DNA from: Planoprotostelium fungivorum
Taxonomy: Eukaryota; Evosea; Variosea; Cavosteliida; Cavosteliaceae
DNA length: 46,267 nt
Direction of reading: 5' to 3'
NCBI GenBank assembly: GCA_003024175.1
Contig: MDYQ01000215.1
Span: 1 to 46,267, forward strand
Position 1 is the first letter of the stretch. Each line of letters begins with the position of its first letter. The position numbers and the translations under genes were made by a program. This document shows positions 30,758-35,134 of the stretch, piece after piece. Under the pieces are notes generated by a model. It was given only the letters and a program-made list of their open reading frames with translations, had not been told where the DNA came from and made no database searches.

Positions 30758-32702
30758 TTAGTTCCTCCATCTGCAGAGAGTCAGTCCTGTGTGTGTGAAT
30801 GGAAAGACTCACATCTTGATTGTCTTGTCTTTTGATCCTGAAGCCACTCTCTGTCCATCGGGACTCCAATCTACAGAGAACACCTACAATAGAGTTAAGA
30901 TCGTAGTTCACACGATACAACAGATGAACTACTTTAGATGATGAACGGATGACCTACCTGATCGGCATGACCGGGCAGATCTTGTTTCAACTTCTTCGTC
31001 CTGACGTCCCAGACTTTCAGCGTGGAATCCTTACTTCCCGAGCAGATCAATCGACTGTCCGAACTCCAGCAGACTTGATACACGGCCTCCACGTGTCCTC
31101 TCATCGTACCCACAAAACTGTTCCCTTCAGCTCAGAGACTACTCCTCCTCCTCACTTTCCGTTGGCAGCGTTCCACAACTTGATGGACTTGTCGAAGGAA
31201 GCGGAAGCGAGCATCCGACCGTCCGGTGAGAAGACGACGACGTTGACGACCTGTTGGTGTCCCGTCATCCTCAGTACTGGCTTCTTGTTGTTCTCCGGAT
31301 CCCACAGGAAGAGCGTGTGATCGTCGCTGCCACTGCACAGCCTCTCTGAACCTCCCGTGGTGGCCACCACTTCGTCGTATCTCTTCTGTGCCCTCTTCTG
31401 TCCTGTTTCTCATCAGTCTCTCTCCTCTGTGTCTCGACTCACTCTCCGTCTTGTCTGATGCCACAGAACCCGTGTGATCGTATTGTCCGGTTCGGATGAC
31501 GTAATCGGTGTTGAGTGCGAGGGTGTTGACCCAGTGTCCGTGTCCATCTAACGTTCTCACCAATTTACCTGAACTGGCCTCCCACACCTACTATCCTTCA
31601 ACAAGGGTCGACATCATTCGACTGATGTGGAGTAGATGAGGGGAAGAGCTGAACGATGGAGAGGATGTTACCTTGATGGTACGATCTTGACTTCCAGAAT
31701 AGATGAGACCTGCACCACCCCACCGGATGCAAGTGACACTCATGGTGTGACTGGTCAATGAATGAATGACTCTCCCCAATACAATATCCCAGATCTTCAC
31801 ACTTCCGTCCTGCTTCATTCAGATTTCACCTCCTCACTCTCTCACCTTGGATGCTGAGGCTAGACGAGTGCAATCTGGATTCTGGTGGAGGGGTTCCCAA
31901 GCGATGGCGGTGACGTACTGTTTGTGAGACGACAAGGCTTGTCCAATCTGGGAGGATGAGATCGTTCTTCGTCAACACTCTCACCTGTTCTCCCGTCTTT
32001 GGGTCCCACAATCTGATCTCCTTGTCCATACCTGCTCCTGTCAATGTACAGAGTATTGAACCCTCTCACCTCCCGAAGCCAATTTTGTTCCGTCAGGGGA
32101 CCAGGAGACGTACAAGACCCAATTCTGTCATGGTGAGTGATGGAAAACGATATAAGAATCACTTTATGGCCCTTGCAGGTGTGTTGTGGAAGATTACTGT
32201 CCACGTCCCACAATCGAACGGTAGTGTCACCTGAGGCTGTGGCCAGCTGTGTACCATCCGGACTGAAGGAGACGCAGAGAACTGCATCATTGTGTCCTTC
32301 GATCGTGTTGCTGCACCGTGTGACAGAGCGGACACGGAAAACGGCCTGAGATGGTGAGATCTCGTTCCTGGGGCAGAGCTCACCTGAGGTTGATATCGAA
32401 TATACAACACTTCCTCTGTGGACACTTTCGTCTCGGCTATGGTTCCGGCCAGATCACCCGTGATCTCATTATCATTGACAAAGAACGAATAGGGTAGTTT
32501 TTCTTCCTGAATGATATCAATCGAAGAATAGGACGTGGTGATCCACATTTGACAGAAGATGATTGATTAGAGATTCCAGCTGTGTGGTCGATGCATTCGT
32601 TGGTAATTCCAACTGAGTTCCTGTGTCTTCACCCTCCCAGCTACGAAACTGCGCGATGACTGTGGTCATGTCTTCTTCCTTTTCTTCTGGAATTATCCAC
32701 AT
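30758..32702 (-). CDS. NLE1: Notchless/Rsa4 WD40 ribosome assembly factor
   Basis: Notchless (yeast Rsa4) is a nuclear pre-60S biogenesis factor. Its NLE/ubiquitin-like domain engages the AAA ATPase midasin (Rea1/MDN1), and its WD40 propeller sits on the pre-ribosome. The N-terminal domain includes [16 protein letters not shown] and [17 protein letters not shown]. Eight WD repeats follow, for example [35 protein letters not shown]-type EWEPL segments, [30 protein letters not shown] (the typical NLE1 signature), [19 protein letters not shown] and [10 protein letters not shown]. The end DKTIKIWRN matches the usual RIWRR terminus and is completed by a 42-nt terminal intron; the stop is TAA at 30758-30760. 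An alternative start is the ATG at 32669, giving [11 protein letters not shown]. Confidence 0.95.
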
Positions 32703-32821: not shown

Positions 32822-33973
32822 ATGAGCTGGCTCTGGAAGACCGATAAAGGTGTTCCGTACATTTTGTATCAACCGAAACTCACGAATCGGAACAGGATGG
32901 AAGGAGTACTCAAAAGAAGATATCGAAGCGATTGAAGATCAGTTCAAGGTGCTTCTTTTCATTCGACGATTAATTCAGATTGAATTGTTGTCTAGAAGGG
33001 GAAGAAGAGATTCGATCTAAATGCGACATATGCAATTGACTTCAAGAACATGATCCAAGTGAGAAAAGATGATCCTACAAGACAAAGAAATATCAAGAGA
33101 GAAGGTCCTGCAGTAGAACCAAGAGGTAAGCCATTTTTGCTTTGTCTCTCACACACGACAGCACAAGACGAAGATCCGCGACCCGCTAAAAAGTAATCAT
33201 CGAGCTCTACTCAGTATGATCAATAATCCTGACACACAGCAGAGGTAAACAGACCAAGACAGAGAAGGTGGCGGAAGAACTACGGGTCAACCCAAAGAGA
33301 CTACAGAGAGATTTCAAGATCACAAAAGACGCAGAAGCGAAGGGCGTGGCTCCATTCACATGCGAGCTGATCGATGAAGATCTGTATCAGTGGGAGATCA
33401 AGTTGAGAGAATTCGACCCTTCCTCCGAATTATACAAAGAGATGTCCAAATACGAAAAGAAACACGGCATCGTGAGTTGTACACGTTAGATCGAGGCTCT
33501 AATTATTGATAGGATCATGTCACCATCAGACTCTACTTCCCTGGTGACTATCCCGTGAGAATTAGCATCCAAGAACATAATATTCTTGTCATCGAAGAGC
33601 ATGATCATCTCACCTTTGGAGAACATCATCTCATCGCATCACACAAAGGTGGAATAACAGTTTACAGTTGGAAGCTCCGTTCGTTCACATCGTCAGCCCA
33701 AAATTGGTCGGTGGTTTTGTGAGTGTAGAGCCCACGACGTTGACTGATGACCAGCAGATCTTCTCGGGTGGAATGTGTGCATCCGTGTTGATGCAGGGAT
33801 GGTCAGCGGGAATAGTCCCCGAGTCGCTCATCTTACAGATCAGAACACTGCTCCACGAAGGAAATCCACGCATTTACAACATGAACAAGATTGAATCTTG
33901 GAGTGAGAACGAAGCCAGGAGTGGATTTCAGTCGGCCAAACAGGCTCATGCCAATGACAAGAGCTTCGAATAA
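32822..33973 (+). CDS. WWE domain fused to UBE2Q-type ubiquitin-conjugating enzyme
   Basis: Eight exons (32822-32849, 32896-32948, 32996-33125, 33162-33192, 33240-33471, 33513-33554, 33668-33718, 33758-33973) give 260 aa. Residues 1-55 form a WWE-like fold: a Trp-x-Trp start (MSWLWKTDKGWKEY), then QFKKGKKRFDLNATYAIDF and MIQVR, ending with RQRNIKREGP. WWE modules bind poly/iso-ADP-ribose. Residues about 85-260 are an E2 of the UBE2Q group: KRLQRDFKITK, DYPLEAPFVHIVSPKLVGG, then GGMCASVLMQGWSAGIVPES with the catalytic Cys in GGMC. The exon linking the halves reads AQDEDPRPAKKNRGKQTK and splices in phase, so this is one protein rather than two. The in-frame ATG at 32753 is an alternative start. 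One intron is 113 nt, long for this window. The stop is 7 bp from the next gene's stop. Confidence 0.85.
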
Positions 33974-33980
33974 ATTCTCT

Positions 33981-35134
33981 TTAGTTGATCAACGGGGTTC
34001 TCTCATCGGTCGTAGGTGATCGTTCCTTCTCCTTCCTCCTTGCAAAGACTAGGGCGATGAGTACCAGAACCATGGCCATGGGTATTTGTTCAGAAACCCC
34101 AAAGTAGAAGACGATGAGCAGGATGTAGTACGGTGTGCTAGAGGAGTAAGGTGCCTGTGGGTATCGGTTGTGAATGACATTGGCCGCGGCGTGCAGAGCG
34201 AAGTTGACCGTACACACACCCACCAGCAGACGGAGCTGCTTCTGCGTTAGTAGAGGAACAGGATCATCACTCACTCGACGCAAGACGTAGTTCTTTCTTC
34301 GGCTGTGCTTGAGGGCGTGACGAAGCCTCTGGCTCAATAGAACCCCCCAGATGATGAAATTGACCACAAGGATGATCGCTAATGTAGAGATAAAAATGGC
34401 CTGCAGAGTAATATCTGTCTGTGAATATCTGGAGGACTCTGCTGCACAGATTTTAGCATTTATGTATGTAAGCGCAAATTCACATCTAAAGTGTGCAAAA
34501 TAGAAGCTGTAAGACAGAACCAGAGAGATAACAAGAAACTCAGTCAGAGCGAACAGATACCACAGACTCTGTCTCGATTGGACCTTACCTGTACCACTGT
34601 AGTACAGGTCGATTCTGATCTTCATTAGTCGATGCATGCACGATCACTTACATGTAAAAGAGGAGAACAAAATAGATTGTAAATTGTAGTATCTGTCTGA
34701 ATGAGAAAAAGACACAGCAGTTTCCCACCTCAGGAACATAGTCGACAAAGACTAACAGCCATAACTTGGGATAGATGTAGTTTTGAAGAGTTTCTTTGTG
34801 GTTGAGTGCGAACAGAAGCCATGATCGCTCTGTTTCTGGTCATGATTCGATCTCACAATATCACACACCGCAAAGAAAAAGCAGACTCAAAGCATAGATA
34901 ATCCGTGGTCTAATCTGAGCTTTTCGTAAATTCTGTAGTTGTGAGACAGAGAGGTGCATGTTCGAGACAGACCCTCACAAAGAAGACACGCAGGAGAAGG
35001 ATCAAACTGAAAATGGCTAACAGAATATATATCGATCCGAGAATATACCGAGTTAGAACACTTCTGGGGTCACCGTGGGGTGTGATGTCCCCCATCCTCC
35101 ATGTTGTTGTCTTTTTGTCGCCCCCTTTTCTCAT
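33981..35134 (-). CDS. Seven-TM protein, TOM1/THH1- and GPR137-like
   Basis: This is a multi-pass membrane protein on the minus strand with about five exons. After a short basic N-terminus come helices reading YILGSIYILLAIFSLILLLR, IIYALSLLFLC, YPKLWLLVFVDYVPE, ILQFTIYFVLLFYI, LTEFLVISLVLSYSFYF, LQAIFISTLAIILVVNFIIW and PYYILLIVFYFGVSEQIPMA. The loop LRKAQIRPRIIYALSLLFL and the VPEILQF helix resemble the THH1/TOM1/TOM3 and GPR137 group of vacuolar/lysosomal proteins. The C-terminus DERTPLIN contains an acidic dileucine-like sorting signal. The family assignment is tentative; that it is a 7-TM protein is well supported. The start could be the internal ATG giving MGDITPHGD. A 20-bp inverted repeat overlaps the first codons. 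Confidence 0.55.

Follow-up and report, generated by a model that had tools for sequence, protein, structure and literature searches.

Ubiquitylation that depends on ADP-ribose has so far been understood either as the work of an E3 that reads the mark, as in RNF146, or as DELTEX chemistry. A gene at positions 32822-33973 of a 46,267-nucleotide stretch of Planoprotostelium fungivorum DNA (the window) raises the question of whether the reader can also reside on the E2 enzyme. The gene appears to join an N-terminal WWE domain to a UBE2Q-type conjugating domain, a combination that is uncommon. We consider it probable, based on the analyses below, that this single gene encodes a UBE2Q-type E2 with an N-terminal ADP-ribose reader that steers the enzyme to ADP-ribosylated proteins. 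If a reader is indeed fused to a noncanonical E2, then an E2 can carry targeting information, which is normally the job of a separate ligase.

A predicted eight-exon gene with one open frame

The gene was rebuilt from sequence as eight exons on the + strand that form one open frame and encode one protein (Table 1). All seven introns begin with GT and end with AG, and their lengths are, in order, 46, 47, 36, 47 or 50, 41, 113, and 36 nt. The coding sequence including the stop codon measures 786 nt when exon 5 begins at 33240 or 783 nt when it begins at 33243, giving 261 or 260 residues, and residue numbers throughout refer to the 260-residue form. A preliminary description of this locus had proposed an eight-exon gene at 32822-33973 whose coding length and phase fit one protein, and at the level of the genomic sequence this observation is confirmed. 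The two junctions it singled out, 33125/33162 and 33192/33240, are both present in the rebuilt model, with 33243 as a second open acceptor for the latter.

Table 1. Predicted features of the WWE-E2 gene, in window coordinates
Feature	Positions	Strand	Content and basis
Exon 1	32822..32849	+	Start codon and first part of WWE; WWE profile crosses junction 1
Exon 2	32896..32948	+	WWE; profile match
Exon 3	32996..33125	+	Remainder of WWE with Tyr39, Gln48, and Arg58; start of linker; matched on its own in the genome search
Exon 4	33162..33192	+	Charged linker; splice signals only
Exon 5	33240..33471 (acceptor also 33243)	+	End of linker and first part of UBE2Q-type E2; PDB match
Exon 6	33513..33554	+	E2; PDB match
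Exon 7	33668..33718	+	E2, PFVHIVSP region; PDB match
Exon 8	33755..33973	+	E2, including the catalytic Cys (codon 33776-33778) and His253; stop codon; PDB match
WWE domain, aa 2-62	32825..33100	+	Pfam, 58 bits; introns 1 and 2 fall inside
UBE2Q-type UBC domain, about aa 101-254	33301..33952	+	Pfam and PDB matches; split by introns 5-7

We infer the splicing of this gene from domain homology and splice signals. Introns 1 and 2 are supported because the WWE profile runs through only once both have been removed, and introns 5-7 because the UBE2Q match keeps its register only after their removal. Homology thus backs five of the seven predicted introns, and introns 3 and 4, which lie in the charged linker of about 38 residues between the two domains, rest on splice signals. 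A seven-exon model that keeps the 36-nt intron at 33719-33754 is open as well, but it places 12 extra residues between GGF and GGMC. Removal of this intron yields an ungapped alignment to UBE2Q1 and UBE2Q2, and we therefore took the intron as real. A further C-terminal exon was also sought by scanning single introns of about 27-160 nt that start within 33901-33990 and end in CAG or TAG. None of the 21 combinations keeps His253 and adds a later Trp.

Splice signals were judged against introns that homology predicts in further E2 genes of this assembly. The first set comprised 13 junction tests at 11 UBC loci, with a junction found in nine and none in four (L010, L015, L017, and L018). The second comprised nine tests in the UBE2Q-like paralogue described below, with a junction found in six and none in three. 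One junction in each set had two solutions, and the one ending in CTTAG (first set) or GACAG (second set) was used. The resulting 15 introns, which are a rough yardstick because they were picked by eye-guided patterns, range from 37 to 104 nt; their last three letters are CAG or TAG in 13 and AAG in two, and the last 30 nt hold YTNAY in 12 and the tighter CTRAY in six. The predicted introns of the WWE-E2 gene are 36-113 nt long, and all seven end in CAG or TAG. CTRAY is found in three of them, and YTNAY in all seven, although the latter is a loose pattern that about one third of random 30-mers hold by our own estimate and that overlaps the acceptor in intron 6.

One transcript or two

Intron 4 has a weak donor (GTAATC), and its 3' end carries a branch-point-like CTGAC followed by CACAG. 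Its donor also overlaps an in-frame stop codon: when the frame is left unspliced at 33193, it ends at TAA 33194-33196 and yields a WWE-only protein. This arrangement would suit two genes or transcripts, one for a short WWE protein and another, with its own start, for the E2. The genome is also compact: only 7 nt separate the end of a convergent neighbor's frame from the stop codon of the E2. Moreover, the E2 frame can be opened in 10 models that start at an ATG within 33000-33340 and use one intron of 30-130 nt, none of them unspliced.

Each group of these models has a drawback. The two that start at ATG 33216 use introns (33245-33299 or 33245-33308) that end in GAG and lack YTNAY, whereas CAG or TAG closes 13 of the 15 yardstick introns; the two AAG ends would show that other ends can occur, if those junctions are right. 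This ATG also lies only 19 nt past the WWE stop codon. Two further models start at ATG 33069, in another frame of exon 3, and join a donor at 33113 (GTAGAA) to the same acceptors, 33240 and 33243, as the fusion, so they require a start within the WWE exon in a different frame. The remaining six, from ATG 33050, are in the WWE frame and are shortened forms of it. We therefore consider two separate products quite improbable. The fused model appears to be the best among those compared, and a single gene is most likely as judged from sequence.

The convergent frame lies on the - strand at 33981-34643, within the interval 33974-34643, and encodes 220 residues with hydrophobic stretches, in keeping with compact gene packing. 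On the other side of the WWE-E2 gene, at about 31000-32700, WD40-repeat-like frames run divergently on the - strand. We take these to resemble Notchless/NLE1.

The WWE domain and its ligand pocket

The proposal that the N-terminal module is WWE-like was upheld by a search with Pfam profiles. The WWE family (PF02825) matches residues 2-62 over profile positions 2-67 of 67 with 58 bits (E 1.2e-15; cutoff 21.1). Three Pfam families match the spliced protein at E values up to 1 (WWE, UQ_con, and WWE_5), the last of them below its cutoff. Even the exon 3 piece alone passes the WWE cutoff in a six-frame search of the whole assembly (26.9 bits, C164:33002-33100). Among PDB chains, RNF146 (3v3l) matches with an E value of 2e-7 when the whole protein is the query and 1.8e-8 when the first 70 residues are used. 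The shorter query matches seven sequences at E values up to 1, of which RNF146 is the best; TRIP12 (6.4e-5) and DTX1 (0.0021) are also matched, as are, more weakly, the Deltex protein 2a90 (0.042) and HUWE1 (0.081).

Alignment to RNF146 3v3l indicates that the pocket residues Gln48, Tyr39, and Arg58 are kept. We take their RNF146 counterparts to be Gln153, Tyr144, and Arg163, numbers that fit the numbering of Tyr107, Arg110, and Trp114. In a published comparison of WWE structures, adenine is touched by a conserved Gln, and the proximal phosphate by Tyr and Arg residues that are likewise conserved (PMC11269756). The same source attributes the iso-ADP-ribose preference of RNF146 to Tyr107 together with Arg110, Trp114, and Lys175. 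Trp5, Asp8, and Lys12 stand at the first three of these positions in the window protein and do not supply the RNF146-type iso-ADP-ribose contacts; Lys175 falls outside the 3v3l alignment.

A similar pattern occurs in HUWE1 and TRIP12, which are reported to have Trp at the Tyr107 position and acidic residues nearby, to recognize the terminal ADP part, and to have been solved with ADP-ribose and ADP (PMC11269756). Because Trp5 and Asp8 replace RNF146 Tyr107 and Arg110 in this HUWE1/TRIP12-like manner, iso-ADP-ribose is a less likely ligand. If the domain binds, terminal ADP-ribose (mono or at the end of PAR) is likelier than internal iso-ADP-ribose. Thus, the earlier suggestion of ADP-ribose or PAR reading holds with regard to the Gln/Tyr/Arg pocket, and its iso-ADP-ribose component is weakened.

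The replacement of RNF146 Tyr107, Arg110, and Trp114 by Trp, Asp, and Lys could instead mean that the domain no longer binds ADP-ribose and serves as a protein-protein interaction module. Several human WWE domains bind iso-ADP-ribose or ADP-ribose weakly (PMC11269756), which agrees with this view. However, the ligand-contacting Gln, Tyr, and Arg are all kept, and the Trp at the Tyr107 position is shared with HUWE1 and TRIP12, whose WWE structures contain ligand. Loss of binding therefore seems unlikely, and we proceed with the WWE domain as a putative ADP-ribose reader.

A UBE2Q-type E2 domain

The second half of the protein had been described as a UBE2Q-like conjugating domain with an intact GGMC catalytic Cys, and our searches agree. 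Pfam UQ_con (PF00179) matches residues 101-241 with 30 bits (E 4.6e-7), a margin of only 3 bits over its cutoff of 27. In the PDB, among the best 60 of 189 matches at E values up to 1, the top E2 relatives are UBE2Q2 (1zuo, E 1.3e-23) and UBE2Q1 (2qgx, E 5.3e-23), and the next E2 is Ubc13 (E 1.3e-7). Identity to UBE2Q2 is 30.8% over 156 positions, with a second count of 46 of 154 aligned positions. Judged by sequence comparison, the Pfam and PDB scores for both domains are far beyond chance. The predicted catalytic residue is Cys196, and an HPN motif occurs nowhere in the protein, as in UBE2Q.

Human UBE2Q1 and UBE2Q2 share with the window protein the E2 subfamily as judged by sequence, the absence of HPN, the Cys, the equivalent of His409, and the presence of an extra N-terminal domain (PMC10971424). 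In the human enzymes, that extra domain is an RWD, a kind of domain suggested to recognize substrates (PMC10971424). No RWD is found among the three Pfam families matched at E values up to 1 by the window protein, which carries WWE in its place. The human proteins further differ in having a longer tail, Tyr343, where the window protein has Phe, and Trp414, which the window protein lacks by register (PMC10971424).

These differences bear on catalysis, because UBE2Q1 and UBE2Q2 are reported to discharge ubiquitin without an E3; Ser, Thr, glycerol, and glucose serve as acceptors, and reactivity toward Lys is relatively low (PMC10971424). In that report, UBE2Q1 mutants of the triad Tyr343/His409/Trp414 still load ubiquitin, and all except Y343F fail to discharge it on a test peptide. 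Our alignment places Phe188 at Tyr343 and His253 at His409. By simple register, Ser258, five positions after the His, stands at Trp414; this position lies beyond the HMMER alignment, and the C-terminal tail is short. Residues of the closed conformation are also changed: Leu354, Tyr364, and Met371 correspond to Val199, Ile208, and Leu215, and Glu367 is kept as Glu211. The UBE2Q1 substitutions L354A and Y364A abolish discharge, and E367L and M371A weaken it markedly (PMC10971424).

Based on these residues, loading of Cys196 with ubiquitin is likely. Intrinsic, E3-independent discharge is doubtful because Trp414 is not kept by register. The idea that the E2 bypasses an E3 accordingly draws on the behavior of UBE2Q1 and UBE2Q2 (PMC10971424) and is set back by the apparent loss of a Trp that discharge by UBE2Q1 needs. 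The changes could also be taken to mean that the fusion is expressed with an inactive or non-transferring E2 domain and acts as an ADP-ribose-directed adaptor, given the absence of Trp414 by register, the replacement of Tyr364 by Ile, and the short C-terminus. Nevertheless, the Cys and the His409 equivalent have been kept in an otherwise diverged domain, and UBE2Q1 tolerates the change of Tyr343 to Phe (PMC10971424). We assign this adaptor role a low probability, and the E2 chemistry of the fusion is plausible, though not assured.

WWE, E2, and ADP-ribosylation genes in the assembly

The assembly (36.9 Mb in 471 contigs) contains 15 PARP matches and 10 PARG matches, and ADP-ribose would therefore be there to read. 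A search for the Deltex DTC domain in the assembly gave no matches; it was run without a positive control and is thus not evidence of absence. UBC matches number 46, and neither the window E2 nor a related gene on contig C362 is among them. The assembly holds 12 WWE matches, one of which is the window gene. Nine of the other 11 were inspected; the two left out, on C37 and C238, have scores equal to those of inspected loci. Going by their coordinates, WWE and UBC matches are always more than 5 kb apart (the closest pair, on C238, is separated by about 5.4 kb), in a scan that misses UBE2Q-type genes such as the window gene.

When the whole protein was searched against the assembly, eight matches were obtained at E values up to 10. 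The window gene itself accounts for five of them, in pieces; two more are an E2 on C46 and C238, and one (C362:51552-51863) falls in a UBE2Q-like paralogue, L005 (C362:50052-53363). This paralogue has GGSIC, an H-G-W tail, and His at the position of UBE2Q1 Tyr343, and its joined E2 region scores 44.1 bits with UQ_con. No WWE match occurs in this stretch, and 63 of 172 aligned positions are identical to the window E2. On this comparison, the window gene and the paralogue are two distinct UBE2Q-type genes, the former predicted to carry WWE where human UBE2Q1 and UBE2Q2 carry RWD. A DNA search of the assembly for a second haplotype copy returned one match, the window itself. Relatives of the fusion were also sought in viral contigs, where three stretches fit a pattern, none was confirmed, and no orthologue was found.

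A proposed route and its relation to known systems

Both domains, the catalytic Cys, the pocket residues, the open spliced frame, and the PARP and PARG matches are read from the sequence, and we infer from these a transcript, ADP-ribose binding, ubiquitin loading, and a transfer step. In the proposed route, the WWE domain would bind ADP-ribose, more likely the terminal form, and an E1 would charge Cys196 with ubiquitin. The charged E2 itself would be brought to ADP-ribosylated proteins by its WWE domain, and would pass ubiquitin on at that site whether or not a RING E3 takes part. The preliminary interpretation as a whole is partly supported.

Several known systems resemble parts of this route. 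RNF146, HUWE1, TRIP12, and Deltex E3s have in common with the window protein the Gln/Tyr/Arg pocket of WWE and a coupling of ADP-ribose reading to ubiquitin; in contrast, their reader is on the E3 rather than on the E2 (PMC11269756). The precedent cited in the preliminary description, UBC-PARP fusions, is indeed described: such fusions, of the PARP6/8 type, are reported from a green alga and a moss as well as from fungi (PMC2964712, PMC4245714). They likewise place an ADP-ribosylation-related domain and an E2 domain in one chain, although that domain is a writer (PARP) rather than a reader (WWE). A looser link between E2s and ADP-ribosylation than these fusions is offered by bacterial MavL, which is reported to bind ADP-ribose and also to bind UBE2Q1; in the latter contact, a short segment of MavL meets the RWD domain, and ADP-ribosylation of UBE2Q1 was not detected (PMC8699189, PMC10951314). 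Within the part of the open-licence PMC literature that was surveyed, we found no WWE-UBE2Q or other WWE-E2 protein, and eukaryote protein databases may list one without comment.

The boldest reading concerns the acceptor. The WWE domain might bind terminal ADP-ribose while the UBE2Q domain puts ubiquitin directly on a nearby hydroxyl, possibly one of ADP-ribose, without an E3. DELTEX E3s are reported to put ubiquitin on ADP-ribose, and this product, a ubiquitin ester on ADP-ribose, is the one that the boldest reading predicts; however, DELTEX enzymes employ RING-DTC chemistry with a separate E2 (PMC12203941, PMC13270118). We regard such direct transfer as a distinctly slim prospect. If true, the ADP-ribose-ubiquitin hybrid mark that is now credited to DELTEX E3s could also be made by a route that needs only an E2. 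The 260-residue protein offers a means of asking whether UBE2Q chemistry can be directed to ADP-ribosylated proteins or to ADP-ribose itself.

Other WWE loci

Among the other WWE loci of the assembly, L027 (C468:59300-63900) is possibly one WWE-containing PARP gene: its PARP catalytic matches lie about 2.2 kb downstream of its WWE match and share that match's strand. At four more loci, a WWE domain lies at the C-terminal end of a long open frame: L021 (C48:1847-2062), L022 (C46:48997-49206), L023 (C384:65197-65406), and L024 (C68:42511-42720). The WWE domains of L021 and L022 score 48.8 and 46.2 bits, and at their N-termini both frames match the linker-histone H1/H5 domain (28.7 and 25 bits, respectively; cutoff 22.4). 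L023 and L024 resemble these two by eye. The presence of a linker histone and an ADP-ribose reader in one chain looks unusual.
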